Shown in pieces: positions 1 to 19,813 of a stretch of 20,722 nt of DNA; within the stretch, counting starts at the first letter, position 1; each line of letters starts with the position of its first letter. This DNA is from a virus. The position numbers were made by a program, and so were the translations under genes. The stretch is taken from IMG/VR virus record IMGVR_UViG_3300030118_005674, positions 1-20,722 of that record; one strand, written 5' to 3'. The notes beneath the pieces were generated by a model that was not told where the DNA came from, did no database searches, and saw nothing but the letters and a program-made list of their open reading frames with translations.

Positions 1-2726
1 AGTTCATCTGGAAGATACTTGTATGGAATCACACTGTCGCATGAACAAGGTCCGTTTACCTCACCATAGTAATTGTTACCAGAATTTATTGCAAAAGCGA
101 TAGGGTTAAATTTATTTGTTTCGGGACACAACGAACATCTGCTGTTATAACCATGACTGATACAGAAAGGATTTTCTCCTCGTGCGAGAACCGAACCATA
201 ATCATTTGGTTCACCAATCACACCAAGAAGAATGCCACCACCAAACTCACTTCCTGGCTCAAGTGAAGATGTTGGGTTGTTGTTTACTGCACATTGTTCT
301 CTTTCTTTTTCCCGATCAAACACTTCTGTAAATACATCAGGTTTGATGTAAGATTTGGTACTTGCTGTTTTTGGAGGTTCGTTTGGTACATCGGCAAGAC
401 TTGAAAATTGTCCAGAGTTAAATGCCTCGCCGCAACTTCTCAAACATGCGCCATTGGGACCATCGACGCTTGGTTCGTTGCCAATACATCTATTGAATAT
501 CCATACGTTTTTGGTGCAGTAACAATTATCATCTGCACTCGTACTACAACAAGAACCGTTATTCCCATTCTCATCAAAGACGAAGCAATTACCGTTACAT
601 TCAATTCGCTGGATTGGGTCGAAACTTGTATCACTTATTGGTTCACCCGTGATTTCATCAACAAGAAGCACGCCGTTCTCCGATACATAACTCAAATCCA
701 CATTTGTACGGCAATACACACATTCATCAGAACTGTCTTCTGAGCCTGTGCATTGCTCCAATGCTACGCAAACTGCTAATTCCGTATCCCAACCGTAAAG
801 TGCGAACCAACCGCACGGACCTCCACCAGCGGCAACATCTAAATCGCATAGCACATCTGGAATACACGTTCTTGTTGTAATTTCCGTGATTTTTCTTTCA
901 CAACACTGGTCCGCCGGAGGTCCCACACAAAGTCCGCCAGTAATTCTATTACCAGAACACTGACCCGGACATGGTTCGTTGAGTGAGCAATACTGGGCTA
1001 TATTGCAAGTTCCATTATCTGTCGTTGCAATCGGACAATATGAAGAATTATCTTCAAGTATGCAACCGAAAATAGAACAAGAGTAATTATTATAATACCC
1101 TTGAATGAAGTTTTGAATGTCAAATCGAATCGGTGGACATGAGAGTTCCTGTCCGGCATTGTCAAAATACCGACATGGCCCATTAAATGTCTCGCTGACA
1201 AAACTTGCACTCGGAGAAATACCTCTGATTCTAAATTCCTCTGCGAGTCTAGCACAATCGGCTTGTTCGGGGACTGAGAAATTTTGTGTAAATCCGTCTA
1301 AATTAAATGTGCAACACTTACATGTTGGAGTAAAACTTTGTGCGGCACAACAATCAGTTTCTTCACAAAGTGTTCCATTCCCTTGGAATATGCCACCCCG
1401 ATCATTACATGATACTGGTGTTTCATCGGGGAAGCATTGGAACGCAGGTCCGTCACCCTCTGGAGTGTAAACACAACAAGCACCACGATATAAGTCTTGT
1501 AAGCAGCAATTAAAGTTAGAACAAGATTCCCCTTGGAAAAAAGTACCTCCCGCTAAAGAACATTCAATTGGACTAAAATCATAACAAACTCCACCAACAC
1601 AACAAGCACCAACCTCGCAAGGATCTGGACACTCAATTCCACTATTCTGGTTTGCGCCGGGGAAGAAAACTCCACCGTATTTGTCACAGAGAAGTTTTGT
1701 GGAAATTGTTTGAGTTCCGTTAACACAACAAAGACCTCCAAGTGAACAGTCGGAATCATTTGATCTTTCAATACAGGTGGATCTATTATCAAACTTGCCA
1801 CCGACTCCTTCGCAGTATAGTTTAGAAACATAATCTATGCACTCACCATTGAACAAGTTCGCTTCTGCGTCTTTACAAAAACAGCAGGATCCAAACTGAT
1901 CCTCACCTGCGTATGTTTCCGTCATTCCTTCATCGTTGGAGAATTGACCGAACGGAATGTAAACTGGATTACCATCTGCTGAAATTCCAGCGTTCAAAAT
2001 TGGAGTTGTATTGTTAGGACCCTTTTGAAAACTTAAGTGAGTTTTACTTGCCGTTAAGCCCGCTGTTAATTGTGGAAAGGTGTAATCAAGATCCGTTGCT
2101 CCAATATTTCGGAAGTTTGTGTTTCCCTCAATATACTGAAGAAGTGTGGTAACATTTACTGTTAAATTATCCGAGGAGCCACTTATACCACCTTTTGAAT
2201 AAAACGAATAATCCAATCCTTCCGCAGATCCACCTGAAGGAACAAACAAAAGTTGCCCTGTGACACCAACGAATGATGCCGCCTCTGTTCCATAAATGTT
2301 AAGACCGGTAAGGCCAGACGCATCTGCTGTCAAAGATGCCGCACCACTAAAACCAAGAGTCTTGAAGTTTGCGGTTTGTCCTGTTGGTGGAAGGAAAATA
2401 TCAATACCGTTGAAACCCGCACCAATAACAGAAATATTTGTTTCAATATTATCATCACCAGTCGGACCTGTTGCCTCTAATTTACCATAGATAAATCCCG
2501 TGGAGCCGCTTTGTAAAGCGTTTTGATCATCGAAGATAAATGTGATGGATTCGTTTGTCGCTGTCACTCCAACGAGTCTGCTACCAGTGACACCAATCGG
2601 TCCAGTTGATCCGGTTGGGCCAGTTGGGCCGGTAGGTCCGGTTGGGCCGGTAGGTCCGGTTGGACCGTCAGGCCCAAGTCCTGCGATATTTGTTAAACTA
2701 CTACTACCGTAAAAAGTTGGAGACAC
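1..2726 (-). CDS. Giant collagen-like, Cys-repeat virion adhesin (3' end outside window)
   Basis: The frame is open from a GTG at 2724-2726 to the left edge, giving 908 visible residues with no stop. I chose GTG because AGG lies six bases upstream, as at neighbouring genes; no better ATG is near. Residues 1-17 are a short head with YGSSS, matching the IGSS head of the upstream 1619-aa protein. Residues 18-48 are collagen-like (GPT)n. Residues about 49-278 are Gly/Ser/Thr-rich, probably beta structure. Residues 279-460 hold repeated Cys modules of the type GACC-x-G-x-C-x-C-x3-GG-x-C. Cys-rich sequence continues to about residue 900 (about 64 Cys in total by my count). The motif GSEFGGG at 825-831 followed by YGSVL parallels GAEYGGG/YGSIL in the upstream protein, so the two are tandem paralogues. 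By analogy a lectin-like C-terminus may lie beyond the edge. The likely role is a distal virion fibre or adhesin; this is inference from domain style and operon position. Confidence 0.8.
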   Translation of the reverse strand, partial: MSPTFYGSSSLTNIAGLGPDGPTGPTGPTGPTGPTGPTGSTGPIGVTGSRLVGVTATNESITFIFDDQNALQSGSTGFIYGKLEATGPTGDDNIETNISVIGAGFNGIDIFLPPTGQTANFKTLGFSGAASLTADASGLTGLNIYGTEAASFVGVTGQLLFVPSGGSAEGLDYSFYSKGGISGSSDNLTVNVTTLLQYIEGNTNFRNIGATDLDYTFPQLTAGLTASKTHLSFQKGPNNTTPILNAGISADGNPVYIPFGQFSNDEGMTETYAGEDQFGSCCFCKDAEANLFNGECIDYVSKLYCEGVGGKFDNRSTCIERSNDSDCSLGGLCCVNGTQTISTKLLCDKYGGVFFPGANQNSGIECPDPCEVGACCVGGVCYDFSPIECSLAGGTFFQGESCSNFNCCLQDLYRGACCVYTPEGDGPAFQCFPDETPVSCNDRGGIFQGNGTLCEETDCCAAQSFTPTCKCCTFNLDGFTQNFSVPEQADCARLAEEFRIRGISPSASFVSETFNGPCRYFDNAGQELSCPPIRFDIQNFIQGYYNNYSCSIFGCILEDNSSYCPIATTDNGTCNIAQYCSLNEPCPGQCSGNRITGGLCVGPPADQCCERKITEITTRTCIPDVLCDLDVAAGGGPCGWFALYGWDTELAVCVALEQCTGSEDSSDECVYCRTNVDLSYVSENGVLLVDEITGEPISDTSFDPIQRIECNGNCFVFDENGNNGSCCSTSADDNCYCTKNVWIFNRCIGNEPSVDGPNGACLRSCGEAFNSGQFSSLADVPNEPPKTASTKSYIKPDVFTEVFDREKEREQCAVNNNPTSSLEPGSEFGGGILLGVIGEPNDYGSVLARGENPFCISHGYNSRCSLCPETNKFNPIAFAINSGNNYYGEVNGPCSCDSVIPYKYLPDE
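1347..1892 (-). repeat. Array of GACC-type cysteine modules, left-edge adhesin
   Basis: Residues 279-460 contain successive units starting GSCC, GLCC, GACC and GACC, each about 40-50 residues. The shared pattern is G-x-CC, a first C after about 4-15 residues, C-x3-GG-x-F near the middle, and one or two C at the end. Comparable GACC repeats are common in secreted proteins of planctomycetes and related environmental bacteria, where they look like small disulfide-stabilised units. Their binding function is not known to me. Confidence 0.8.
2583..2675 (-). repeat. Collagen-like GPT triplet repeat, left-edge adhesin
   Basis: Codes for residues 18-48: GPD, then a run of GPT triplets, ending GST-GPI-GVTG. 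The DNA alternates near-identical 9-base units (ACCGGACCT/ACCGGCCCA), so it is also a direct repeat at the nucleotide level. Collagen-like Gly-X-Y stretches in phage fibres usually form trimeric stalks; that role is inferred here. Confidence 0.9.
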
Positions 2727-2737
2727 TACTCACCTCA
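2724..2737 (-). promoter_or_regulatory. Stop/ribosome-binding-site fusion that sets a GTG start
   Basis: The minus strand reads TGAGGTGAGTAGTG. The TGA is the stop of the 1619-aa gene, its last base begins AGG of the Shine-Dalgarno sequence, and GTG follows six bases after AGG. This spacing supports GTG as the start of the next gene. Confidence 0.75.
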
Positions 2738-5700
2738 ATAACCACTCGATTGTGAACCACCCATGCCCGGATTAGACATACCTGCACTTCTATTTATAGA
2801 ACCTGTGGAGCGATTTTGTGAAGGTAATGTTCCTCTACTGTATTCTTCTAACAAACTCTGACCTGTTTTGTTAACGGCTCTTGCGTATGTGTTTATGATC
2901 TCTCTTGGACATCGAGATCCTTCACCACCAAAATTTCCAACATAATAATTTACACATTCATATCTACTCGTAACAAAACAATATCCAGAAGATGTGGTGC
3001 ATGAGCCATATTTCTCACCAATAAATTCTGATGGGAATTGTTGTCTTGCACCATCGGGAATGCCTGGAGTTCCAACCAAATAATTCCATTCTCTATCTTG
3101 TGGTCTGTTGTGTCTAAACCCCCAGTTATAAATGTTTGCTGGTCCAGTTACTCCTGCTGCTTCGTGGATAAAGTGATATTTATTTGTTTCAGGATTCGCA
3201 CCCGGCTCAGATGAATTGAAAACATATGGAATGTACCAAAGTCTAGCGTGCTTATCGTGCCAAATACCAGATTGTTCTGGGTTGTAACGATCAAATCCTG
3301 CTCTTGGATAACGACCATCCGCACGAACAAGTCGAATCGGTCTAACTTTTGCGGTATCAGAATCTTTTCTAAGTTTTCGAGAACTGAACCCTTCTGTTGG
3401 ATTTTGAACACTGATATTGTCGGGGAACTTCATCGCCCATGCTCGTGTCATATGTCCAACAATTTCATCACCCTGTCCTTGTCTCAATCTGTTATCTGAT
3501 CTCGGAACTTTTGTTCCAACAAACGGAGCGAGTCCAGTCATACCATCAACAGGTCCGGTTCCGATTCCTGTAGTTGCTCCCGTCGTTCCAGTAAACAACA
3601 AACCCTCTGGACTTCCAAGATGAGTTGATTGTCCAGTGATCACATACTCATTCCATTCGATCATCTTCTCACGAATGGTTTCATATCTCTCTTTTTCCGC
3701 TGGATCGGTTGGAAGAGCACTTCCCGACACAAACGCTGCCACTCTCTCCTCTGGATCTGTTGGTAAGAATTCTTGGAAAGGTGACAAATCAACATTTTGA
3801 AAAATTTCCGACAGTTTTGTTCTTGCCTCAAAAACATCAATAAGTTTTCCACTGAAGTCGAACGCACCCATTGATGTCCAATATTCACCAACAATTGGAT
3901 CACCACCGAGTTCAACTAACTTATCATTCAAACCTTCGAGTGCAACTTTTCTTGCGATAAATGCCATTTCATCTGGACTCGGTAAATACCAAGGGGACAT
4001 GAATGGTGGGTTTGGATAGAGTAAGTTATTCGCAGGATCACAGTATTGATCTGGACACGGTTGTTCTGCTCCACTAAATCTATCTGGACTTGTTGCTCTG
4101 TCGTCAAACTTAGTTCTCACCGCATGAACGGCAGAGAGTCTAGCATCTGCTTCGGCAGCGGCGCTACCGATTGATTGAATTTTACCAAAGAGATATTTAC
4201 CAATATATGCTTGAGCGTTGTAGTAATCTTTTAATGAGTCGTGAGTTATACCCTGCGTTATAAAATCACTCAAACCATATGGTTCTCTTAATTTATATTC
4301 TTCATAATAATTACCACGAGATGTTATTCCAACCGCTCTTACATCTTGTGGGAATGATGATCTATTATATGGACCGAAATTGGTGTCAGAACTGTCGTCA
4401 CAACCAATTAAGAAACCACCCGTTCCATTTTCGTTTGGTGGAGCATTGTCACAACCACAGTTGAATGCAGCAGACATACCACCTATCGGGAACGGAACTT
4501 CAAAGGCAGCGGCAGTATTTCCGCATCTTTGAGTTATAAATCCGTCTGGTGAAATATAATCATAAGTTCCATTACAAGCAGTGGTGGTGCCATATGTAGG
4601 CTTACAATCGTAATAAGCATGATTTATAGCGTGTGCCATGCGAATAGTATTATACAATCCCCAGTTCTTATGGTAATGTCCAAACATGTCGGGAGCAAAC
4701 TCATAACGACCAGTCCCGTTAACTGAGCCATTTTGACTGTGAACTTTTGATTTGGTGAAGAGTGCCTCTATGGAACCACCGATAGAAAGTTCATCGTGAT
4801 TTCTTCCTAGTATTCTTGAATACTCATAGGATGTCGCAGACTGAGTGAATATATCTTTTTTAAGTGCTCGTTCTGGAACGAGATAATCAAATGCTTCTGG
4901 GTAAAATGAATAAGCCTTCGGTTGAGGTTTTACCGGCCAACCAGAAACATATCCAAATGGTTCGGATACAGTTCTTCTCCAGTGACCCTCTTTCATTTTA
5001 AACATATTACGAAGATATCCGCCCGCTTTCTTTTCTTCAGAGCCGACCAACATTTCATTAAACTGACTGCCTGGAGTTTGAATTGCATCGGGTGATCCAT
5101 TTAACATGTCAATGTCAAGATCGAGATATCGTTGGAAATCTGCATTATCTTCAATATCTGTGCCTTCAAAAGATGGTGCGTTAATATCTGACATTGGTGC
5201 CCAGTTTGATCCAGTGACACCCCATTTGAATTGATCTGTATTGTCTGAAAGTTTCGCATCATTCATCGAAATAACAATGTACCACGCATCTTTTCTTACC
5301 TGACCTAAACTTTCGTTTGGTAACGAAAGATCGCTCCAATATGTGGCATCTCCATCTGTTGGAATCGCTGGAGTTGCATCAAAACCATAACCAGTGTAAT
5401 CATATGATGATCGGTAAAAGTTTGAGTTCACTGTTTCATTTTGAAGTGTTAAAAGACTTCTAGGCCAATAGTAAGCAGAAGTTGTGTATGCAAAAAGATG
5501 TTGTAATGGATCTGTTGTTATCGTTGGAGAAAGAGTATGACTTCCAGGCCAATATTGATTAACCCATCCATAACCGGGAATAACATTTACCTTCGCTGCT
5601 TCCTCATCATCAAAGACCCCGCCAGTTTTACCACCACCTCGATAAAATGGCAATGAACTTTCAACAGCGGTAATAGGAACTCTCTCTTCCACAATATCTC

Positions 5701-7594
5701 TTGCGGTGACAGAAAAACCAGCGTTACCTAAAAGAATCGAACCATATGGATTGTAAAGTCCACTGACAACCCCACCACCATATTCTGCACCATCTTGGAA
5801 TCGAGGAGAAACATCTGGGTGTCTAAAGAAATCATTTACCAAGGAAGAATTTACTGTGACGGGACAAGTTGTAGTAGAGCAACGACTTGACTTGCCGGCA
5901 TACTTTGATCCACCTGAAATACAAGTGTCTGCCTCTACACCATCAACACATGATCCAAAGGTACAACATGCACCAGTTCCACCAGAACAAAGAGTGTCTG
6001 TGCAAGGAATACCTTTTCCTCGGAAGAATCCACCCGTTTCTTCACAAACGTATTGACTTACCTCCGTACAATTTCCGTGTCCATCACAACACGCACCGAC
6101 ATCGAAAATAGAGTTAATACAATTTACTTGTCCACAGCCTGGATCTGAGTCCGGATCTGGATCTGGCATATAATCGTTAAACTCATTAAACGAAGAGAAA
6201 AGATCCTCGTTACCATACCCAATCGCAAGACACTCATCTGGTGCCATGTTGTCAAAACACTGCAATGGATTTTCTGGATCGAAATTTATATCTAATGGTG
6301 GATTTAGAGAACCAAAACTACCCAAGTTAAATTGATTTTCAATTTCACCATTGATACCAGCGGGATCTAATTTTTCGTTGTAAACACAACAAGGACCAAC
6401 TGCATCTGAATTGTATGGTCCTGTGGGTAAACCACAAACCTTTAGTCTATCGACACCAGTAAATCCATATGCCTCTGAAATGTAATCAGGTACAAAGAAG
6501 CCTGGACAATTGGTATAGGTTGTAAAAACTGGAACACCCGTTCCCAAACAGCAGACACCAGTTTGTTCTGGGTCGGTTTCAAGATCAGGTAATTCATTAC
6601 AATAGTGTGTCTCGTCGTAAGTTTTAAGTGACGATGCACTCTCGTCCCAATAAACCAAATTACCATACCACTCATTTCCATATGAGATAAAGGTGAACAC
6701 ATCTCTGGTTCCACTAAAGCATGGTTTCTTTGTGAATGGGAATTTAACAATAGAATCGGTAGATGTGAATCTATCGACAATTGCTGATGTTCCAGTCGCA
6801 CCCTCAACGACTAAGAAAAAAGATGCCGATTTATTTGCCGGTGGTTTTTTAATATTAACTGTAAGTGGTGCGAGATCAGAATAAGAGTTTTGTGTTTGAA
6901 TAACAAATGTTTTTGCTTTAGTCCAATCAATCTCTGCTCGAAGACCAGCGGTCGATCCAACTGTGTCTGCACTTACTCCACCGTCTGCTGTGCCTAAAAG
7001 TAAACTTGGCTCCAAGAAAGAAGAGACACCAAGACCTTCGATTTCATGACGGGCAGAAAACTCAGATGCTGTTGATCCGGCAAGATCCTCAAAAAGACCA
7101 CTAGAACCAGCCTTGATAATTTGTTTTGGTGCTGCGTTTACATTTAAATATCCAGTGCCAGATATGTCATATGAAACAACAATTTTCTCACCCTCGTCGA
7201 TGAGATTAATTAAAGGTGACTCTGTTCCAATTTTACGAACAGTAATTTCGTTTCTTGTTGCTTGTTTGCCGAAAGTAAATCCAAAACTAAAGTTTTGAAC
7301 TGCGAGATCCTCAAACACAGTCGGTCCAGTATTACCTAAAATTTTACTTCCGTCGATCCCTCCAGTAACAGCGTCAATCGCTCTTTCTGTAGTGGCTCCA
7401 GAGAAAAGAGAAATAAAGGTTATACCTGAAGATTTTTGAGAGAAGCCCTCGAATCGCTCACCCGTAGCACCAGTAGGTCCAGTGGGTCCAAGAAGAGTTG
7501 GTCCTGTTGGTCCTGTTGGTCCGGTAGGGCCTGTCGGTCCCGTTGGACCAGTTCCTGTCCTCACAAAATGACTACTACCGATGTATATGGGCAT
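2735..7594 (-). CDS. Giant collagen/Cys-repeat/DUF1566-lectin-like virion adhesin (1619 aa)
   Basis: Probable host-recognition or decoration protein. The start ATG overlaps the upstream stop as TAATG. Domain order: short head with YIGSS (1-13); collagen-like GPT repeat (14-45); long beta-type region with GNEWYGNLVYWD at 307-317; Cys pairs GVCC (346-349) and GPCC (400-403); two full GACC modules (500-536 and 541-577); GAEYGGG/YGSIL (602-621); a large Tyr/Trp/Asn-rich region (about 620-1190). A DUF1566/Lcl-like domain (C-type-lectin or FGE-like fold) follows: WYLPSPDEM (1202-1210), YWTSM (1238-1242), AWAMKF (1385-1390), VRPIRLVR (1417-1424). It contains an insertion of about 140 residues with a TGATTG low-complexity stretch. 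A degenerate Cys unit (1529-1562) and a Ser/Gly/Asn-rich tail end the protein. It is a tandem paralogue of the next gene. DUF1566 domains occur in phage and bacterial surface proteins; the receptor-binding role is inferred. Confidence 0.85.
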   Translation of the reverse strand: MPIYIGSSHFVRTGTGPTGPTGPTGPTGPTGPTLLGPTGPTGATGERFEGFSQKSSGITFISLFSGATTERAIDAVTGGIDGSKILGNTGPTVFEDLAVQNFSFGFTFGKQATRNEITVRKIGTESPLINLIDEGEKIVVSYDISGTGYLNVNAAPKQIIKAGSSGLFEDLAGSTASEFSARHEIEGLGVSSFLEPSLLLGTADGGVSADTVGSTAGLRAEIDWTKAKTFVIQTQNSYSDLAPLTVNIKKPPANKSASFFLVVEGATGTSAIVDRFTSTDSIVKFPFTKKPCFSGTRDVFTFISYGNEWYGNLVYWDESASSLKTYDETHYCNELPDLETDPEQTGVCCLGTGVPVFTTYTNCPGFFVPDYISEAYGFTGVDRLKVCGLPTGPYNSDAVGPCCVYNEKLDPAGINGEIENQFNLGSFGSLNPPLDINFDPENPLQCFDNMAPDECLAIGYGNEDLFSSFNEFNDYMPDPDPDSDPGCGQVNCINSIFDVGACCDGHGNCTEVSQYVCEETGGFFRGKGIPCTDTLCSGGTGACCTFGSCVDGVEADTCISGGSKYAGKSSRCSTTTCPVTVNSSLVNDFFRHPDVSPRFQDGAEYGGGVVSGLYNPYGSILLGNAGFSVTARDIVEERVPITAVESSLPFYRGGGKTGGVFDDEEAAKVNVIPGYGWVNQYWPGSHTLSPTITTDPLQHLFAYTTSAYYWPRSLLTLQNETVNSNFYRSSYDYTGYGFDATPAIPTDGDATYWSDLSLPNESLGQVRKDAWYIVISMNDAKLSDNTDQFKWGVTGSNWAPMSDINAPSFEGTDIEDNADFQRYLDLDIDMLNGSPDAIQTPGSQFNEMLVGSEEKKAGGYLRNMFKMKEGHWRRTVSEPFGYVSGWPVKPQPKAYSFYPEAFDYLVPERALKKDIFTQSATSYEYSRILGRNHDELSIGGSIEALFTKSKVHSQNGSVNGTGRYEFAPDMFGHYHKNWGLYNTIRMAHAINHAYYDCKPTYGTTTACNGTYDYISPDGFITQRCGNTAAAFEVPFPIGGMSAAFNCGCDNAPPNENGTGGFLIGCDDSSDTNFGPYNRSSFPQDVRAVGITSRGNYYEEYKLREPYGLSDFITQGITHDSLKDYYNAQAYIGKYLFGKIQSIGSAAAEADARLSAVHAVRTKFDDRATSPDRFSGAEQPCPDQYCDPANNLLYPNPPFMSPWYLPSPDEMAFIARKVALEGLNDKLVELGGDPIVGEYWTSMGAFDFSGKLIDVFEARTKLSEIFQNVDLSPFQEFLPTDPEERVAAFVSGSALPTDPAEKERYETIREKMIEWNEYVITGQSTHLGSPEGLLFTGTTGATTGIGTGPVDGMTGLAPFVGTKVPRSDNRLRQGQGDEIVGHMTRAWAMKFPDNISVQNPTEGFSSRKLRKDSDTAKVRPIRLVRADGRYPRAGFDRYNPEQSGIWHDKHARLWYIPYVFNSSEPGANPETNKYHFIHEAAGVTGPANIYNWGFRHNRPQDREWNYLVGTPGIPDGARQQFPSEFIGEKYGSCTTSSGYCFVTSRYECVNYYVGNFGGEGSRCPREIINTYARAVNKTGQSLLEEYSRGTLPSQNRSTGSINRSAGMSNPGMGGSQSSGY
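2791..2798 (-). promoter_or_regulatory. Candidate T4-type late promoter box TATAAATA
   Basis: A perfect TATAAATA on the minus strand, 64 bases before the GTG of the left-edge adhesin, inside the codons for Ser-Ile-Asn-Arg near the C-terminus of the 1619-aa protein. T4-like late promoters consist essentially of this octamer, recognised by the gp55-type sigma factor with the sliding clamp. It lies in the correct orientation and just upstream of a gene. Chance occurrence is possible in AT-rich DNA. Confidence 0.55.
2909..3010 (-). repeat. Degenerate Cys module near the C-terminus of the 1619-aa adhesin
   Basis: Residues 1529-1562 read GSC, then GYCF, a YEC, G-x-F-GG-x-G and SRC. The spacing resembles the GACC modules upstream but with one Cys of the CC pair missing. 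It lies after the DUF1566-like domain and before the low-complexity tail. Confidence 0.5.
5864..6559 (-). repeat. GACC-type cysteine modules, 1619-aa adhesin
   Basis: Residues 346-577. Two clear tandem units start GACCDGHGNC (500) and GACCTFGSC (541). Both follow G-x-CC, G-x-C, C-x2-x-GG, G-x-C, x4-C. Two looser CC pairs (348-349 and 402-403) precede them, with other Cys between, among them C446, C455, C487 and C492. The same module type is seen in the left-edge adhesin. Confidence 0.8.
7460..7555 (-). repeat. Collagen-like GPT triplet repeat, 1619-aa adhesin
   Basis: Codes for residues 14-45. GPT triplets are interrupted by a Leu-Leu at 34-35 and end GATG. At DNA level it is an array of GGTCCNGTNGG-type units on the plus strand, very similar to the array at 2583-2675 in the paralogue. 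Confidence 0.9.
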
Positions 7595-8769
7595 TATGAC
7601 AATCCTAAAGTTGTTTTAATGGTATTTACATCCGTATTTAGGTTGTTTACTGAGAGGTTTAGATCGGTATTTTCACTTGCAGACGCAGTTTTCGCTGTAA
7701 GTTTGTTTGTTACTTCTAAGTCTTGAACTGTTACTTTTGTTGGAATAGTTAAACCAACTTCTGTTTTTACTTTCAAGAAATATTTAAGTTCAGTTTCTTT
7801 CAAATTTCCGTTTACATCAAAAGTAAATTCACTCTTACCCCGAATTCTAGGAACGGTGAATTTTTCAACTTCGGAATTTGTCACGGTGTAATTAACACCG
7901 TCAATTTTCAAAGACAAGTTTGTTTCTGCCTGTGGCTCGTTACTGTCTCGTCTAACAGTGACCGTGTTATTTGTTGAGTCTATTGATAAAATAGATCCGT
8001 TGTAAACAATGGATCTTGCATTTGTTTGTGTGGCAGACTTTCCAAGTTTTGTCGATGGGAGTTTTACAGATCCATCAAGAGTTATCTTTTCAGTATAACC
8101 AAAAGTTTTACCAAAGAAACCGTAAGCATCGGGATAATCGGAGACAGAAAGATCCTTTGATCCATCCGTGACATCAACATAATTGGTCGGTGGCTTTGGA
8201 TTATCAATATTTAAAACGGTTAATACCTCACCCATTGCACGATCTGAGGAATCACTTGAAACAATTTCGCCACCAATAGAATAACCAATATAGTTCAAAA
8301 CAACAGCGTTGTTTTGTCCGTCGTCTGCTCTTTGAAGTATGGGTTTCACAACTTCAGTCGCATTAGTTGGTGCAAGGTTTTGAATTCCACCTGTCACACT
8401 GGGACTCAAGAAGTAAATATCATTTCCACCCGATGCCCCTGATGGAACACCATCCACGCTTAAGTTTGTGAACAATTCTGATGGATAATCAATCTGACCG
8501 AAGATAACAACATTTAAAGAGTCATCATCCACGGATTCTATAACACCAACAACTTCAGCATTTTCAGCGTTGTCTGCAAGAGATGTTTTATACACAGGGG
8601 GACTTTGAGTGACATCATAACGAATAACATCTCCGGCAGTAAGTCCAGCCTCTAAGTTGTAAACAGAACTTACTTTAGGAATAGTTGCAAGAATTCGTGA
8701 ACCGATGCTGTTAAGGTTCACCGAAGTGATTGATGACATTATGTTTGAACTGTTAGAGCAACTTGGCAT
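7594..8769 (-). CDS. Short fibre-like protein sharing the GDVxRYD domain (391 aa)
   Basis: I do not recognise a named T4 homologue. Residues about 38-165 contain LTAGDVIRYD, NAEVVGVIE, VVIFGQIDY, DIYFLSP, VVKPIL and VVLNYIGY, which align in order with TAGDVVRYD...VVTQGLVEF...CIHFLSP...VSKPLF...VFFNYRG of the upstream 745-aa fibre protein. Residues 212-245 (YPDAYGFFGKTFGYTE, then KLPSTKLGK) are somewhat reminiscent of phage collar or fibre domains, but weakly so. The last 45 residues (TVQDLEVTNKL to the end) are Asn/Leu-rich and heptad-like, suggesting an oligomerising coiled coil. The first ATG is preferred over Met11 because TGAGGTAAAAT precedes it. A stop/start TAATG couples it to the 1619-aa adhesin. 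It may be a fibre adaptor or short fibre. Confidence 0.75.
   Translation of the reverse strand: MPSCSNSSNIMSSITSVNLNSIGSRILATIPKVSSVYNLEAGLTAGDVIRYDVTQSPPVYKTSLADNAENAEVVGVIESVDDDSLNVVIFGQIDYPSELFTNLSVDGVPSGASGGNDIYFLSPSVTGGIQNLAPTNATEVVKPILQRADDGQNNAVVLNYIGYSIGGEIVSSDSSDRAMGEVLTVLNIDNPKPPTNYVDVTDGSKDLSVSDYPDAYGFFGKTFGYTEKITLDGSVKLPSTKLGKSATQTNARSIVYNGSILSIDSTNNTVTVRRDSNEPQAETNLSLKIDGVNYTVTNSEVEKFTVPRIRGKSEFTFDVNGNLKETELKYFLKVKTEVGLTIPTKVTVQDLEVTNKLTAKTASASENTDLNLSVNNLNTDVNTIKTTLGLS
7623..7630 (-). promoter_or_regulatory. Weak late-promoter-like box TGTAAATA
   Basis: One mismatch to TATAAATA on the minus strand, 28 bases before the ATG of the 1619-aa adhesin, inside the 3' end of the 391-aa gene. 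A CTAAATA lies just upstream. The spacing is good but the match is imperfect. Confidence 0.25.
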
Positions 8770-8780
8770 ATTTTACCTCA
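8767..8780 (-). promoter_or_regulatory. Stop/ribosome-binding-site fusion TGAGGTAAAATATG
   Basis: The TGA stop of the 745-aa gene overlaps the AGG of the ribosome binding site for the 391-aa gene, six bases before its ATG. This arrangement allows terminating ribosomes to restart on the next gene. Confidence 0.75.
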
Positions 8781-11015: not shown

Positions 11016-11026
11016 TTCTTACCTCA
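11013..11026 (-). promoter_or_regulatory. Stop/ribosome-binding-site fusion TGAGGTAAGAAATG
   Basis: The TGA stop of the 818-aa gene overlaps the AGG that serves the 745-aa gene, six bases before its ATG. Confidence 0.75.
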
Positions 11027-13480: not shown

Positions 13481-14409
13481 TCTGAGAATGTTCCAAACTG
13501 GGTTGCACCAAGAGAGTCAGAAACAACAACGGGAACACCATTCATGTACCGAATTTTATTATTGGTGTGATCAACATATAAAACTTTAGATATAGTATTA
13601 TCTGGAACGGGAACTCCACCACCTGCTAAGTCTCCTGATGTTACAACCCGTTGGAAGAAAATTTTCACACGAGCGGCACCTGCGGCAACATCGTTAGTAA
13701 ATCCAGAAGAGTTGTCGTTTAAACTTGCATCACTAAACTGATCTTCTTGAGAGTATGTTGATGGAACAATGTATGATTGACCCATTGAGAATCCAACATA
13801 AGTTTTTCCTGCTTCGAGTTTATTTAACGTTATGGTGTTTGTTCCCGCAGTAAGAACATTATAGTAAATAAAATACTTAAAGTTGTTATCGACTTGCGAT
13901 CCAGTTTTTACGGAGGAGTAGTAAAGACCTTCATTCAAAGTAATTGTCAAAGTGGTTCCATTATCTGTGATTTGAACCAAATCTGGAATTTGAGCCAAAG
14001 CACTTGGAAAGGCATCTAAAGTTATAACTGGATCGTCACCACTTGAAAGTTCTATGTAGGTTCCTTGATTATATGGCATGATTGGTGTCGCCCCATCCCA
14101 AGCAGGACCAGCATATCTTAAATTTGTATCCTCATCACCAGATCCACTAAAAGGATCACCGGCAAACGCTGACCAACCGTTTACCATGTAACCAAAGGCA
14201 CTGTGATTGTAGTGGTGTCTTTCTTGAATTTCATCTAATTCAGATGACTGTAAAGGATAACCCGGTCTGAATGCCGTGTATTGATAATTTTTTGCAACAT
14301 CAAAGGCATTAAGTTCTTGTTGAAAAAACCTTGAGTTATATGGAGAAACTGAAAGTGGTGTTTTCGGTTCGTCGTCGTTTATTTTGAATGGTGCAATACT
14401 TCTAGCCAT
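13477..14409 (-). CDS. Virion protein with FRPGYPLQSSELDEIQ head, paralogue of the 818-aa C-terminus (310 aa)
   Basis: Residues 44-63 carry YTAFRPGYPLQSSELDEIQE, a segment seen near the N-terminus of structural proteins of marine T4-like phages, where a helix follows a conserved PG-x-LQ-x-SEL. Residues 104-292 are homologous by eye to 648-815 of the next protein: WDGATP, DNNFKY, GKTYVGFSMGQ, ARVKIFF and VLYVDHTNNKIRYMN. The gene follows the gp8-like wedge gene with a TGAGG stop/RBS fusion and overlaps the 818-aa gene by ATGA, so it is translated with them. The position corresponds to gp9/gp10 in T4, suggesting a connector between baseplate and fibre, but no clear similarity to gp9 or gp10 is visible. 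Function is inferred from context. Confidence 0.75.
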   Translation of the reverse strand: MARSIAPFKINDDEPKTPLSVSPYNSRFFQQELNAFDVAKNYQYTAFRPGYPLQSSELDEIQERHHYNHSAFGYMVNGWSAFAGDPFSGSGDEDTNLRYAGPAWDGATPIMPYNQGTYIELSSGDDPVITLDAFPSALAQIPDLVQITDNGTTLTITLNEGLYYSSVKTGSQVDNNFKYFIYYNVLTAGTNTITLNKLEAGKTYVGFSMGQSYIVPSTYSQEDQFSDASLNDNSSGFTNDVAAGAARVKIFFQRVVTSGDLAGGGVPVPDNTISKVLYVDHTNNKIRYMNGVPVVVSDSLGATQFGTFSE

Positions 14410-14419
14410 TTTTACCTCA
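14407..14419 (-). promoter_or_regulatory. Stop/ribosome-binding-site fusion TGAGGTAAAAATG
   Basis: The TGA stop of the gp8-like gene overlaps AGG of the ribosome binding site of the 310-aa gene, five bases before ATG. Confidence 0.75.
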
Positions 14420-16231
14420 ATATGATCCGAGTGTGTATAAGAACGTAAATGAAACTTGTTGCGGGGTATTTGTCACAGTGATGTCGGTTGAGTTTGATGA
14501 TACAATTTTACCCGTGAATGGTTTAACATCAGGTGAAGAAACAATCTCCGTGATTTCAAACGATGTTCCGATGTTGGAGTTTGCTGCGAGTCTATCGCCA
14601 ACAACAAAAGGTGTATCTTTTACTGCAATCGCTTCCACTTCCGCAACGCCACCACCAGCATCTTTAGAACTTAAAATAACACAACTGTTGGGTGTAACTT
14701 GAGTTGGAATGGATCCAATCGAGGAAATCTTGCCCGTGCTTTCGTTTGTCACGTTTGTGAATTTTGAAGAGCGAGAAAAGGTTTCAGAACCCGATGCAAA
14801 ACTAAATGAGGATGAGCCAGGAGACACTTTAAACTTGTGAACATTAGAAAAAGTTTCTGCTTGATCCGTATTTGTTTTTGAGCCAGCAATGTATGATGAA
14901 GTATCATTTTTCACTTTAACATCTCGAATAATTCCATATCGTTTAAATATTGTCTGGTTTGTGTTTGCATTCGTTGGAATCTGATCCACACGAACAATAG
15001 ATTTGATCATGACTTTTGCTGCCCCCAATAATCTTCTAGGATCTGCAAAAAGTCCACCTTGATAATCTAGACTAAACGTAACTCTACTTTGTAAGTCGCC
15101 TGGTGTAGAAACACAAGTTAAATCACGATATCCGCTACCTTTGTTAACAACACGAATACCATCAACAACATGGCTTCCATCTTTTTTATACGTTGTAAGT
15201 ATGACGGTAGCATCAGTTCCACTTAGCGAACTTAGTGTAATTTCCGGATTACTTGTAGAAATTGTTCTCTCACTTTCAGTCAATCCACTCAAATCAATAA
15301 ACGCATTATGAACTTGACCTTCATCTCGTTTAGCATCACGATAAACCTCTGTCTGAAGTTTGTTGTTTGAGTTTGGTGAAAAGAATTTTAAATTCGCAAG
15401 TGCTTTTTCATATCCAGTATTGGAACTGATGCTTGCTGCACACGCAGTTGCACCACCTGTTGCCGCACACAATCCACCTCGTTTGTAAGTAAACTCTCTA
15501 TTTAATCGTCGTGCAATCTTAAAACATTTTGCACACGGCACATTATCTAAACAAAAGTCAAAAGATCCTTTGGTGAACAAAGTATCTAGAACAGGCTCAA
15601 CCTCATCTTCTTTGTGATAGAAGCAGCACGATCCTGTTAGACCACTATTATTTCCACATCCTCGTCTAAGTGCCTCTTCACTTAAAGTGGCAGAAGATGA
15701 AATTGGATCATATTCATTAATGTCGGGAACGGGGATATTGTTCGGTGTTTTGAATTTAATTTTAGTAACGTCAATTTTGTATAAGAATTTCCAGCGATAA
15801 CCATCAGATAAAGTTTGATTATCTTTTGTTCTGGATGGTTTTACTGTTGAAGTGCTTTGTCCATTTAAATCTTTTCTATTTTTTGCATTACTTCCAAGAC
15901 AAACAAAAACTTCGTCGTCTTCAGTTAGAGCGTAATAGTTTCTTTCTGGTCCACTGACGCCAGTTGGAATTCCCGATGATTCATACGGATGATAAACGTT
16001 ACCGCTCGACCAGTTCACTCGTCTTGCGACAATTTCAACGTCGCTCTCTCTTATCTTTTGAAAGAAGTTAGAGGACTCCCAAACTTTGTTGTCATCGTCA
16101 ATGCTATTGAGCGGAACGTCAGCAGCACTCTCTCCACCCAAGAAAAGAAGCCAATTTGTTTGATCTCCTCTAATTAAATCATAGAGAGTCTTTGCGTTGT
16201 CAATACCAAGTGATCGTTGAGTAGTTACCAT
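14417..16231 (-). CDS. 8: Baseplate wedge protein, gp8-like (604 aa)
   Basis: A baseplate wedge subunit that in T4 joins gp7, gp10 and gp6. The N-terminus follows the gp8 plan: a short helix (DNAKTLYDLI), a strand WLLFLGG (27-33), VWESSNFFQKIRESDVEIVARRVNW (50-74; compare the IPRRDW region of T4 gp8), YYALTEDDEVFVCLG (99-113), and SDGYRWKFLYKI (142-153; compare GDGYVWEYLFEI). The C-terminus ends in VSFTFLYTLGSY, like the INILFTF end of T4 gp8. The protein is almost twice the T4 length (334 aa). The extra sequence includes a Cys-rich insertion at about 190-265 (GCG, GSCCFYHKEDE, CLDNVPCAKC, GGLCAATGGATAC) that begins like the GACC modules of the downstream adhesins. The start has AGAGGTTAAAAATG. 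It lies directly after the gp7-position gene, as in T4. Confidence in gp8 family membership is moderate to good. Confidence 0.75.
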   Translation of the reverse strand: MVTTQRSLGIDNAKTLYDLIRGDQTNWLLFLGGESAADVPLNSIDDDNKVWESSNFFQKIRESDVEIVARRVNWSSGNVYHPYESSGIPTGVSGPERNYYALTEDDEVFVCLGSNAKNRKDLNGQSTSTVKPSRTKDNQTLSDGYRWKFLYKIDVTKIKFKTPNNIPVPDINEYDPISSSATLSEEALRRGCGNNSGLTGSCCFYHKEDEVEPVLDTLFTKGSFDFCLDNVPCAKCFKIARRLNREFTYKRGGLCAATGGATACAASISSNTGYEKALANLKFFSPNSNNKLQTEVYRDAKRDEGQVHNAFIDLSGLTESERTISTSNPEITLSSLSGTDATVILTTYKKDGSHVVDGIRVVNKGSGYRDLTCVSTPGDLQSRVTFSLDYQGGLFADPRRLLGAAKVMIKSIVRVDQIPTNANTNQTIFKRYGIIRDVKVKNDTSSYIAGSKTNTDQAETFSNVHKFKVSPGSSSFSFASGSETFSRSSKFTNVTNESTGKISSIGSIPTQVTPNSCVILSSKDAGGGVAEVEAIAVKDTPFVVGDRLAANSNIGTSFEITEIVSSPDVKPFTGKIVSSNSTDITVTNTPQQVSFTFLYTLGSY

Positions 16232-16248: not shown

Positions 16249-17490
16249 TTAAGAACATGTTGGAATATTTATATTCGGACTCTGTGCCGCTGGTGAGAGA
16301 AAGAAAAAATCACCGATTTCAATGTCATTAAAGGCTGTTCCCTCCGGAATATCTGTTGCCCAGCCTGGGTGGTTGTGTGTTGGAAATGCGTCTGCGGATC
16401 CATCTCCATCCAAATCGTATGTGCAACCTGTTCCGTAAGTCAATCCTGAAGTTTCCGTAACTCTATACGGATTGTAATGACCAATCAATGTTGTCTCTGT
16501 TAAACCAAATTCACCTTCAAAATCATCTGGTGGAATATAGTCATCGTTTTCCTTATTAAAGATAAGTTGTAATCCTGCCGGATGAATCATTTCCTTAATG
16601 ATGTTGTAAGTTTCATCTTCGGGAACTTCTAGATCACCACCACTTCTGATTCTCAGAAGATATGAATAGTCGTGATACCAACAGTTGTCGGGTAACACTT
16701 GAGCAGATGCAACTCCCGTTCCATGAAAGTAAATACCATCTTCAAAGTTTCTATTTGGTAAGTTATACGCAAGTGGAACACCTCCATCGAGACGATAGAC
16801 ATCTCGTTTTGGCTCATAGATTTCAACTTCCGGTGTTGGACTCCATCCACCATACACAGTGCTCAATAACCATTGAATCCCCTCTTTGCTTGATTTCCGA
16901 ACGTAAAATTTTTCCCGAATCTCTTTGAGAACAAAAACCAACCAACGCTCATCCGTGCCACCCCCGATACATCCAGACTCACTTGGATCATACGACAACA
17001 TGAAATTGTTTTCAAGACCGGTCGCATATTGACCGATGAAAGATTTCATTATTCGTTTTCTCAGATTTCTATTAATAATATTTCCAGTTGGATCGGTATA
17101 GTCTGGAAAATAAAATTCATATCCAACTTTTTCAAAATCAATCAATCGGTAAACATCATCGGGTGTTATGTAATAATTAGCACCAAAATCTGTCTCGCAG
17201 GGATCAAGAGTATACATCCACTCATAATATTGCTCAACGAACGATATAAAATCGGTATAGCCTAAAAGAGACAAATATTTTGGTAGAGCAGTATCATAAT
17301 AAGTGTAGTAACCCACACCCGAAATAGTTCTTTCACTATTGAGTGGAATTACAGGTCGGGGATAATCTGGAAATGACTGAGGCTCATATTGTCTTTGAGT
17401 TGACGAAAAACGATTTTCATAATCAGAAAACAGTTCATTAAATCTGTATTCTTCGTTCTTTGTCGTATTTTTAAAGACTGATCCAAACAT
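16249..17490 (-). CDS. Baseplate wedge protein in gp7 position (413 aa)
   Basis: A structural protein between gp6 and gp8, the place of wedge initiator gp7 in T4. Visible landmarks are YLSLLGYTDFISFVEQYYEW (72-91), LRKRIMKSFIGQYATGL (143-159), an ERWLVFVLKEIREKFYVRKSSKEGIQWLL block (181-209), a short EVEIYEPKRDVYRLDGG stretch (221-237), DYSYLLRIRS (274-283) and MIHPAGLQL (301-309). This series (NFY-x-KG-like block, then YSY, then HPAG) is typical of baseplate proteins annotated gp7-like or 'virion structural' in marine T4-like phages. It is much shorter than T4 gp7 (1032 aa), so the gp7 name is inferred from synteny. The C-terminal DLDGDGSAD (359-367) looks like a calcium-binding loop. The start overlaps the gp6 stop as TAATG. 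A late promoter for the next gene lies inside its end. Confidence 0.75.
   Translation of the reverse strand: MFGSVFKNTTKNEEYRFNELFSDYENRFSSTQRQYEPQSFPDYPRPVIPLNSERTISGVGYYTYYDTALPKYLSLLGYTDFISFVEQYYEWMYTLDPCETDFGANYYITPDDVYRLIDFEKVGYEFYFPDYTDPTGNIINRNLRKRIMKSFIGQYATGLENNFMLSYDPSESGCIGGGTDERWLVFVLKEIREKFYVRKSSKEGIQWLLSTVYGGWSPTPEVEIYEPKRDVYRLDGGVPLAYNLPNRNFEDGIYFHGTGVASAQVLPDNCWYHDYSYLLRIRSGGDLEVPEDETYNIIKEMIHPAGLQLIFNKENDDYIPPDDFEGEFGLTETTLIGHYNPYRVTETSGLTYGTGCTYDLDGDGSADAFPTHNHPGWATDIPEGTAFNDIEIGDFFFLSPAAQSPNINIPTCS
16266..16273 (-). promoter_or_regulatory. Candidate T4-type late promoter box TATAAATA
   Basis: A perfect TATAAATA on the minus strand, 34 bases before the ATG of the gp8-like gene, coding Asn-Ile-Asn-Ile at the C-terminus of the 413-aa protein. 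This is the best-placed late promoter in the window: it leaves room for a transcript start and a short leader with the ribosome binding site AGAGG. Confidence 0.65.
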
Positions 17491-19400
17491 TATTGATCTA
17501 TAATCCTTACATCTCGTTGATTAATATTTAAGACCATTTCTTGACCGGCAAAAATATCAAGAAATTCTGACTTGGCTGTGAAAGTAACCGTGGAATTTGC
17601 TTGAATCACATCTGGATTGATTCTTATCAATCCTGTCTCATAATTAATGTCACCCACACCACCAGTTTCAACGATTACTCTGGTTGTTCCTACATCTGTC
17701 GCAAGGAACAAAGGACTATACCCATAAATGTCTGGTTCCAAACTAGAATCGACAATGTAAACATCACCTCGATTATACTTGTCTGAGGTAAATGTTGAGG
17801 AGAAAAGTGCCTGACCTTCAATTCCATCATCAAGTTTATTCTTAAATGAAATGAAAGTTCTTTTCCCTGCGGTTATCGTTGTCTCTGTTGTCATGTTATG
17901 ACTCAATGTTATTGATGGTCGAATAATTGATGGATCGACCGCTAAAATCGCATCAATAAAATCTGTAAGGACAAAACTATTGTTGAACCGTTTGTTTCCA
18001 CCAAATCGGGTGTTCACCGCATCTTGAATCAATCTAGTGATCGCTGATTTTGTCTTGGTTGTTTGCCCTGCGACATAGTTTACAGAGTAAGCAAGATCGA
18101 GATTGAAATCTGTGTATGGAATAAATTCTGGAATGATTGAAACAGGGGCCTTTTCACCTAATCTGTCAACGATTTCCTGAGAAGCGGTTTCTGACGAGTC
18201 CGTGATGGCAGAAACAAAAACTCTACCATAGTATGGTGGATTTAAATCCTCCCCACCAAAAACAGCGACAGTTTCATCGACAGTGGAGTCTTGAGAAACA
18301 AGATCCGATATGAGAGCATAGTAATCATTTTTCGTTACCGCTCTGTCTTGTGCAGCAAACCATTTTGGTGCAAAGAAACGAATCAAGTCTGGATTTGGTC
18401 CATCTGATCCAAAAGAACTTTCTCCAACGACCGCAACTGTTCCTGCACCAGAATACTCAAATGTTCTGACATTGTTGGCTTGCTCACCAGAGGGAATAAA
18501 GTAAGTGATTCTTACTTTATCGGTCGCAACAATTTTTCTACCAACGTTATCAGTTGAAATATTTTTATTTGTCCCCAACTCATCGTTGTAAACATACTCA
18601 CCCTCACCTCTTGCCGAGAATATAATTTTTATTCCGTCATTTAGTCTCTCAACAAAATACACTCTACTGCTAGAACTAATTGTGGTATTTACTGCATTTG
18701 ATTTGGTATACTCAGTGAAAGTAGAGCCTCCATCTTCACTGACCTCAATTAGTATGGAACTAATGTCAATTCGATTATCTACTAAAATATATTCCTGTTG
18801 GGTAAGATCAATCTGTGAAGTGATATCTCGATTTAAAACTAAATCTTTCGCTTCATATACAACAACACCGTTTGCTTGATTTTCATCATTTCTTTCATAT
18901 GATTGTCTTGTATAAAAAGAAAATGTTTTTCCAGTATCATCAGTTCCCGTAAATTTTGAGAACTTTGGAATTCTTCCTGTTAAGGAGGACATATTCAAAG
19001 TTACTTGAGATGATGTTTTTGCATTGACTGTAAAGCCAAGTGGTTTCGTGATTGAAATTAACGACTCTAATCTTTGTGCTGTGTCGAGATATAACTCATT
19101 CACAATAGCGTTTGAATAATAAGCATAATACAAAGTATTGTATGCAAGAGCATCAACAAGAACATTTATGGCAGACGAAGCAAAATCAATATCCTTTAGT
19201 GGGTTGTCAACTTCATTCCGTGAAAGATATGATATTATACTCTCTTTGATTTCCTGAAATCCAAGCCTACCAATTTGAATTTGATCTTCACTTAAAAGCA
19301 AACTTTCTTGAGTTTCTGTGTACGTCCCCGGTCTAGTAGGTGCATTAGTGTCAATTGACGGCACCAAAGATTGTCCTGTGTAACTGCTATACGCTGACAT
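17490..19400 (-). CDS. 6: Baseplate wedge subunit gp6 (baseplate J-like)
   Basis: Structural core of the baseplate inner ring; in T4, gp6 dimers link wedges and bind gp25 and gp53. Length 636 aa compares with about 660 in T4. The N-terminal helical block has IKESIISYLS (51-60), DIDFASSAINVLVDALAYNT (70-89) and NAIVNELYLDTAQRLESLIS (97-116), then KPLGF, the usual gp6 signature. The baseplate J-like core is seen at AVTKNDYYALISDL (354-367), VFGGEDLNPPYYGRVFVSA (380-398), and a following strand-rich region to about 470. The C-terminus is beta-rich (TGLIRINPD, then VTFTAKSEF). The start overlaps the gp25 stop (TAATG) with AAAGGG upstream, and the stop overlaps the next start in the same way, indicating translational coupling of the wedge proteins. 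Confidence 0.92.
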   Translation of the reverse strand: MSAYSSYTGQSLVPSIDTNAPTRPGTYTETQESLLLSEDQIQIGRLGFQEIKESIISYLSRNEVDNPLKDIDFASSAINVLVDALAYNTLYYAYYSNAIVNELYLDTAQRLESLISITKPLGFTVNAKTSSQVTLNMSSLTGRIPKFSKFTGTDDTGKTFSFYTRQSYERNDENQANGVVVYEAKDLVLNRDITSQIDLTQQEYILVDNRIDISSILIEVSEDGGSTFTEYTKSNAVNTTISSSSRVYFVERLNDGIKIIFSARGEGEYVYNDELGTNKNISTDNVGRKIVATDKVRITYFIPSGEQANNVRTFEYSGAGTVAVVGESSFGSDGPNPDLIRFFAPKWFAAQDRAVTKNDYYALISDLVSQDSTVDETVAVFGGEDLNPPYYGRVFVSAITDSSETASQEIVDRLGEKAPVSIIPEFIPYTDFNLDLAYSVNYVAGQTTKTKSAITRLIQDAVNTRFGGNKRFNNSFVLTDFIDAILAVDPSIIRPSITLSHNMTTETTITAGKRTFISFKNKLDDGIEGQALFSSTFTSDKYNRGDVYIVDSSLEPDIYGYSPLFLATDVGTTRVIVETGGVGDINYETGLIRINPDVIQANSTVTFTAKSEFLDIFAGQEMVLNINQRDVRIIDQ

Positions 19401-19813
19401 TAGATTGCCCTTTCAACTTGTATTTGCACGGTTCTTACAATTTCTCTATTTTCCAATATTCTGTATGATAAGTTAATAAAAACATTATTAGAATCAATTT
19501 TGGAGTCGTCGATTTCGAGTGATTCAAATTCAACTCTTGGCTCATACAGAGTAAGGTTATATCTTACGAGACTGTTTACTCTACCAATAACTTCTGGTGT
19601 CAAAGTTTCAAATAATAATGAGGAAAGTCCTCCACCAAAACCAGGCTCAAATGGTTTTTCGCCGGGATTTGTCAGGACAAGGTTTTTTATAGATTGGACT
19701 ATTGAATTTTCGTTTCGCTTAATCGCTATTGCATATGGTGTATCTTGACCCACACGAGTAAATGCAAGATCAAAATCCGAATATGTATTTGAAGTAAATA
19801 CTTTTTGTGCCAT
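19400..19813 (-). CDS. 25: Baseplate wedge subunit gp25 (GPW/gp25 family)
   Basis: Small wedge protein of 137 aa (132 in T4) that joins gp6 to the tube/sheath side and helps start sheath assembly. Residues 51-69 contain GEKPFEPGFGGGLSSLLFE, the classic core of the GPW/gp25 family, and LYEPRVEFESLEI (89-101) carries the conserved EPR motif. A DLAFTR/IKRNENSIVQSIKNLVLT region precedes the core, as in the family. The ribosome binding site is strong: GGAGG with four bases before ATG (19811-19822). The gene lies between the probable hub gene and gp6, consistent with baseplate gene order in marine T4-like phages. No anomalies seen. Confidence 0.95.
   Translation of the reverse strand: MAQKVFTSNTYSDFDLAFTRVGQDTPYAIAIKRNENSIVQSIKNLVLTNPGEKPFEPGFGGGLSSLLFETLTPEVIGRVNSLVRYNLTLYEPRVEFESLEIDDSKIDSNNVFINLSYRILENREIVRTVQIQVERAI

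Follow-up and report, generated by a model that had tools for sequence, protein, structure and literature searches.

Paralogous collagen-stalked, cysteine-rich proteins as probable receptor-binding fibres in a lineage of uncultured T4-like phages

The window analysed here is the whole 20,722-base IMG/VR record IMGVR_UViG_3300030118_005674, with nothing of the record beyond its edges. Its minus strand is a T4-like baseplate operon that runs from a gp25-like wedge and gp6 through further wedge and unknown proteins, followed by genes of 745 and 391 amino acids (aa), to two consecutive giant genes, P0002 and P0001 (Table 1). We consider it likely that P0002 and P0001 are the first two members of an old array encoding the receptor-binding fibres of an uncultured T4-like lineage. 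An original prediction, made from the sequence alone, had described two consecutive genes (1619 and at least 908 aa) built on a common plan, and each element of that plan was found again: the open reading frames (ORFs), GSS peptides, GPT repeats, beta regions, CC modules, and the GAEYGGG and GSEFGGG motifs. The host-recognition role that it had proposed is compatible with operon position and architecture, both of which would fit such a fibre.

The unbroken GPT run of P0002 spans residues 16–33 (6 triplets), and the Cys-free beta region extends over about 230–300 residues in both proteins. P0002 contains 36 cysteines, and P0001 contains 64, with nine CC in total. Among the other window ORFs of at least 150 aa in six frames, none has two or more CC and one has a single CC. 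A close relative of P0002 reaches 94% in its best segment (residues 1–1234), and a tail resembling the Ser/Gly-rich end of P0002 is present in both paralogues of G005.

Paralogy and recurrence of the array

Compared directly by BLASTP, P0002 and P0001 align at the Cys modules (E 4e-4) and in weak segments, with nothing better than E 0.05 outside those modules (GGG motif: E 0.057). Profiles were compared between group I (P0002 and its orthologues), group II (P0001 and its orthologues), and group III, a third gene type of the array. With collagen triplets masked, the beta-region profiles (24 group I rows, 18 group III rows, and 22 of 26 group II rows, four being dropped for long inserts or short length) match one another (I vs II: E 7.2e-6; I vs III: 3.3e-6; II vs III: 2.2e-4), with reversed or column-shuffled controls at E 0.24 or higher (0.52 or higher for I vs II). 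The C-terminal profiles of groups I and II match in the same order at a WYIPS...RPIR core (E 2.7e-9), a WALV...WG segment (3e-4), and the GGG motif (0.3), compared with E 0.15 or higher in one reversed and five shuffled controls; here, 24 group I rows were set against the 6 of 26 group II rows that have a GG motif, the other 20 being omitted as rows in which no GG motif was found or as the cut row of the window. Near-copies L088 and L096 were omitted from the profile sets. Because beta regions and heads both match in profile comparisons of the kind that the original prediction called for, similarity extends past the GPT and Cys segments, and the predicted tandem duplication is supported.

One branch with 100/100 support separates the 32 group I rows from the 14 group II rows in a tree built from 46 head cores (midpoint root; both WYxPS and RPVR motifs needed for inclusion; identical cores dropped; L090_II on a long branch). 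We regard P0002 and P0001, on sequence grounds, as true tandem paralogues. Because the group I and II head cores lie on opposite sides of this fully supported branch, the duplication is old, and it probably predates the spread of the clade.

Relatives were collected with a gp6 scan (79 loci in 78 records, all 78 then searched with P0002) and a group II Cys-profile scan (41 loci). A group I match was present in 39 of the 78 records, namely 32 out of 39 (best E 1.6e-16 or less), six out of 38 in a second batch, and G001. Eight records of the second batch match P0002, of which two (G073 and G076) match only at Cys modules of another Cys-rich frame and were not counted. The 39 records that lack a match end 0–8.4 kb past gp6, and the array elsewhere starts 7.7–9.9 kb downstream; the missing match is therefore uninformative. 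Four of them (L026, L028, L038, and L053) extend past 7.5 kb, but the array begins later in close sisters of L026, L028, and L038 (L027: ~9.8 kb; L039: ~8.0 kb).

A total of 70 loci were classified, and 54 contigs carry a group I, II, or III gene. In 43 of these contigs, group II comes directly after group I, a share that is no natural frequency because near-identical copies occur among the contigs and sampling went by similarity. A third GSS-collagen-Cys gene (group III) follows the pair in 34 of these 43, and the remaining nine, the window included, end in or soon after group II in the stretches examined. The unit is therefore not the pair: in relatives, at least three such genes stand in a row. 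The 11 contigs without adjacency comprise two that are cut or short (G001 and L169), five that start within or just ahead of a group II or III gene (L129, L154, L157, L165, and L167, with L154, L157, and L167 opening with a cut frame that bears a WYxPS motif), and L161–L164, in which group II is preceded by a shorter gene of the GSS-collagen type that did not classify as group I. GSS is present at 31 of 37 distinct N-termini in group I, 36 of 43 in group II, and 29 of 37 in group III.

The array recurs in dozens of metagenomic T4-like contigs, yet tblastn with six array-protein queries gave no match in 50,697 phage records, in a search where the low-complexity filter may weaken Cys-rich queries and the records nearest the window may be left out. 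The E limits were 1e-5 for P0002 and P0001, 1e-3 for the L109 group I head and group II protein, and 0.01 for the L160 group II protein and a nearly whole L146 group I protein. The same kind of search with the window gp6 returned matches in 1,111 phage records, each at <60% identity. A bacterial or prophage origin was also considered and rejected: one peptide pattern from the Cys/beta profile found no relative in 84,980 genomes, and the single relative returned by two Lcl_C-profile patterns was a protein of a Bathymodiolus gill symbiont (33%).

The group II gene of L106 (G036; reverse-strand frame 3131–14776) has 3882 codons and 438 cysteines, and cysteine counts in other array genes reach 359 (L109) and 279 (L098). 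Several relatives, including L154, L158, and L160, carry another Cys-containing gene type after group III, with an N-terminus like MSVQFRSRIK.

The C-terminal head

A hidden Markov model (HMM) of 20 compact group I orthologue heads, P0002 not among them, locates in P0002 a colinear Lcl_C core (W[YF][LI]PS..E[LM] / YW[TS]S / F / RP[IV]R), which an insertion of ~135 residues splits into two halves. Pfam Lcl_C matches at E 1 or less were obtained for 10 of 23 group I members (best E 2.3e-6). In a search of records, Lcl_C matched in 7 of 16 and in 2 of 14 control genomes, never over the cut-off. The head motif is present in 44 of 45 group I contigs, a 153-codon frame being the one without it, and in 24 of 51 group II contigs.

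An Lcl_C match at cut-off level comes from one orthologue only, L129, the nearest to P0001. This C-terminal fragment (frame of 1342 codons; 55% identity to P0001 in the matched part) has a terminal Lcl_C domain of 39.0 bits, compared to the cut-off of 34.9; the scores in L160 (28.7 bits) and L087 (23.4 bits) lie under it. The group II proteins of L086, L087, and L089 show, by eye, the same kind of ending. P0001 had been predicted to end in a DUF1566-like domain, and this holds by way of its orthologues because those near P0001 end in Lcl_C.

The Bathymodiolus symbiont protein aligns with the phage heads at the WYLPS core only (E 1.5e-4 and 3.5e-4; five shuffles: E 0.14 or higher), and its GG segment, although expected to align, gave no alignment to them. 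Since that segment failed to align, it is by its position in both paralogues that we read the GGG motif as the probable beginning of the lectin-like head and not as a separate element. In three group II proteins, the Lcl_C region is matched by the C-terminal part of phrog_4245 (phage proteins of unknown function), at E 4.9e-7, 2.7e-5, and 0.001; that segment alone matches, and the group I head that was scanned gave no match. Genes further downstream carry WY[IV]PS Lcl_C-like motifs as well (L090 16157–17113; L086 13101–14885; reverse-strand counts), and therefore this head type recurs beyond groups I and II.

Probable role and alternatives

According to passages of PMC11162425, Legionella Lcl is trimeric and carries its DUF1566 head, which has a C-type-lectin-like fold, on a collagen stalk. 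The phage proteins share with Lcl (NF046116; PF07603) a probable N-terminal anchor, a collagen stalk, and a C-terminal Lcl_C head, whereas they differ in their baseplate operon, added beta region and Cys modules, insertion-split head, and tandem paralogues. Scores against NF046116 were 12.5 bits for P0001 (at the collagen run and just after), 21.7 for L129, and 11.5 for L160, compared to a cut-off of 500, and P0002 gave no match. We rate the array as probable tail receptor-binding proteins on an Lcl-like plan, a variant of a known design. Host recognition by phages would thereby be tied to an adhesin plan known from bacteria, with collagen and a DUF1566 head.

In marine T4-like phages, the structural operon encodes putative receptor-binding proteins that bear triple collagen repeats, and pelagimyophages have a host recognition cluster between VrlC and the neck gene gp14, as passages of PMC7029224 describe; collagen alone is therefore not new. 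The pelagimyophage and cyanomyophage cluster resembles the array in its collagen-repeat putative receptor-binding proteins and comparable operon place (PMC7029224, same passages), whereas the six queries gave no homologue in the 50,697 phage records, which include HTVC008M, and the word "cysteine" does not occur in the main text of that paper. Among the titles and opening lines of abstracts listed, we found no description of Cys modules plus an Lcl_C head in paralogous arrays.

The two proteins are most likely baseplate-anchored receptor-binding fibres, trimeric by analogy. The N-terminal GSS peptide, a probable virion anchor, would fix each protein, and a short collagen triple helix, as predicted from the repeats, would form the stalk. 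The beta region and four putative disulfide modules would widen that stalk, and a C-type-lectin-like Lcl_C/DUF1566 head, enlarged by insertions and recognised by sequence in P0002 and near P0001 orthologues, would top the fibre. Three chains may form a lollipop with its heads on surface glycan, by analogy with Legionella Lcl.

The array sits in the tail operon, with wedge genes on one side (in the window) and neck genes on the other (in G005, where genes for head-tail adaptor, head closure, sheath stabiliser, and terminase come after it). Because its genes occupy the wedge-to-neck interval, where T4 has gp9–gp12 and wac, the array probably replaces the short tail fibres of T4. That position is the likeness to the T4 cassette. 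The PHROG matches listed for P0002 and P0001 are mainly to tail-fibre and unknown families, at the collagen run and beyond, and no family described as T4 gp10, gp11, gp12, or wac was among the best 25 and 15 matches listed.

Several observations weigh against receptor-binding fibres of this kind, beginning with the few group II rows in the C-terminal profile (see above). P0002 and P0001 (the latter without its C-terminus) have no Pfam Lcl_C match at E ≤1, and neither reaches the cut-off of 27.2 bits for Pfam Collagen (PF01391; P0002: 11.2 bits; P0001: 19.6 bits). The head motif is missing in 27 of the 51 group II contigs, just four of which are cut short; they are mainly one subclade that ends in more Cys-rich sequence, and the rest are short group II genes of L161–L164, L167, and L168. 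AlphaFold models were poor (mean predicted local distance difference test score of 48.5 for the head, with a few better core pieces, and 53.1), and a fold search with the 973-residue head model recovered no C-type-lectin structure; it matched only at one helical insertion (Z 4.0 or less; none at E 0.001 or less), in a search where one domain may mask others. Also to be explained are disulfides in a virion protein that is synthesised in the cytoplasm; if the cysteines are bonded, the question is how such a protein is oxidised. Among 16 records, we found no Evr1/Alr (which is uninformative, since the control genomes have none either), one thioredoxin match under the cut-off, and no 2-oxoglutarate oxygenase (PF13640), which was found in 2 of 14 controls.

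Profile searches of the PDB returned 4eps only (E 0.18) for the Lcl_C alignment, matches at the collagen run for the full group I alignment, and no match for the group II Cys/beta alignment. As a lead only, the model of one P0001 Cys module (residues 372–412; window 1491–1613) superposes on a segment of ADAM17, presumably the one named membrane-proximal domain (Z 3.8–4.1, root-mean-square deviation [rmsd] 1.5–1.6 A, 39–41 residues, 27–31% identity; ranks 2–4). The top-ranked structural match is also ADAM17 (rmsd 8.4 A over 80). This likeness lacks PDB sequence-profile support, and its Z lies within the possible chance range.

Sequence variation bears on both the fibre reading and its main competitor. 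Between P0002 and its near relative G001, there are no amino-acid changes in residues 1–300 and 77 nonsynonymous differences in residues 801–1200, and the ratio of nonsynonymous to synonymous differences per site (pN/pS) rises along the protein from 0.00 (residues 1–300) through 0.05 and 0.22 to 0.35 (801–1200), as for a constant stalk and a changing head. The remaining counter-evidence comes from four other informative pairs (L097/L101, L093/L095, L103/L108, and L098/L109), in which the head has a lower pN than the stalk and beta region taken together, although by pN/pS the head core of L097/L101 is above the stalk (0.41 vs 0.31); the L146/L149 pair is identical and thus uninformative. Because these four pairs show the opposite pN trend, the P0002/G001 pattern may reflect relaxed constraint on the insertions of the window lineage. 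The proteins might instead be structural decoration or whisker proteins of the neck or a baseplate collar, in which collagen and Cys regions are scaffold and the head only trimerises. We regard this as unlikely, although the heads of those four pairs are no more variable than the stalks, the motif is absent from the 27 group II contigs mentioned above, and the array lies just ahead of neck-type genes, the place of wac in T4. It does not account well for the large lineage-specific head insertions, the concentration of changes in residues 801–1200 and not in residues 1–300 in the window pair, or the tail-fibre-like gene with a weak carbohydrate-binding match two genes away.

DUF1566 proteins can serve as targets of diversity-generating retroelements (DGRs). 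Two DGR papers, PMC4159848 and PMC6642488, reportedly use the term DUF1566 12 and 5 times. The Lcl_C heads could be variable domains that govern tropism and are rewritten by a reverse transcriptase of the phage, but we give this very little credence, as no RVT_1 reverse transcriptase was present in 15 of 15 related records (possibly fragments), whereas it was found in 3 of 14 control genomes. Another alternative is that the proteins are adhesins that hold virions to particles or glycan-rich environmental surfaces and not to a bacterial host. Lcl binds sulfated polysaccharides, fucoidan among them (PMC6111780; PMC11162425), which favours such a role, but its surface lysines are poorly conserved even within Legionella (PMC11162425), and we hold the particle adhesin to be improbable.

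Within the preferred reading of receptor-binding fibres, we tentatively put forward, as a speculative extension, an analogue of collectins. Three or more trimers with collagen stalks, hardened by disulfides, would assemble together in place of the short tail fibres of T4. The first, and in many cases the second, would bear an Lcl_C lectin head, and cysteines number in the hundreds in some of the proteins (438 in the L106 gene). The disulfides would close only outside the cell or by some other route, and the fibre would be a durable device to reach and grip sulfated glycans on surfaces. Compact group I heads, at ~440 aa, would lend themselves to expression, structural studies, and glycan arrays.

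Features and gene neighbourhood

Table 1 Features of the two array proteins and of neighbouring genes (window positions; residues abbreviated res)
Feature	Position	Strand	Basis or remark
P0001, group II adhesin, at least 908 aa	3..2726	-	GTG start; 3' end beyond window edge
P0001 collagen-like repeats, res 18-50	2577..2675	-	unbroken run, 11 triplets
P0001 beta region, res 54-275	1902..2567	-	profile match to P0002 beta region
P0001 four conserved CC modules, res 281-459	1350..1886	-	conserved modules
P0001 further variable Cys-rich region, res 460-770	417..1349	-	sequence
P0001 GSEFGGG...NDYGS motif, res 822-847, probable head start	186..263	-	profile alignment
P0002, group I adhesin, 1619 aa	2735..7594	-	ORF; orthologues in relatives
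P0002 N-terminal GSS peptide, res 1-14	7553..7594	-	sequence
P0002 collagen-like GPT repeats, res 16-45, one break	7460..7549	-	sequence
P0002 beta region, res 47-345	6560..7456	-	paralogous to P0001 beta region (profile match)
P0002 Cys region, four CC modules, res 348-577	5864..6553	-	CC at 348, 402, 502, 543
P0002 DGAEYGGG...YGS motif, res 601-623, probable head start	5726..5794	-	profile E 0.3 alone, not significant
P0002 KDAWYIVIS...KWG segment, res 768-798	5201..5293	-	aligns with group II WALV..WG, E 3e-4
P0002 Lcl_C core first half, SPWYLPSPDEM...EYWTS, res 1200-1245	3860..3997	-	HMM E 1.7e-10
P0002 Lcl_C core second half, AWAMKF...VRPIRLVR, res 1384-1425	3320..3445	-	HMM E 5.5e-5
P0002 Ser/Gly-rich C-terminal tail ending SSGY, res 1590-1619	2738..2827	-	sequence
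391 aa gene, MPSCSNSSN start	7594..8769	-	similar genes upstream of group I in several relatives
Tail-fibre-like protein, 745 aa	8778..11015	-	phrog_4492 E 2e-36; weak CBM_4_9
Baseplate wedge subunit	14417..16231	-	phrog_438 E 6.5e-27
gp6-like baseplate wedge	17490..19400	-	Gp6-like_1st E 1e-14
gp25-like baseplate wedge	19400..19813	-	phrog_261 E 2.4e-30

The name gp25 for the product of 19400..19813 follows T4 gene order. The CBM_4_9 match of the 745 aa protein scores 19.5 bits, under the cut-off of 25.9. Between the wedge and tail-fibre genes, an 818 aa protein (window 11024–13480) matches no Pfam or PHROG family at E ≤1. Promoter and terminator scans gave chance level only. In relatives, giant Cys-rich ORFs, reaching 2694 aa and 289 cysteines, occur upstream of gp6 as well: the one at L070:3-8084 has no PHROG match at E 0.001 and no Pfam match at E 1, and similar ORFs are present in L051, L052, L071, L082, and L084.

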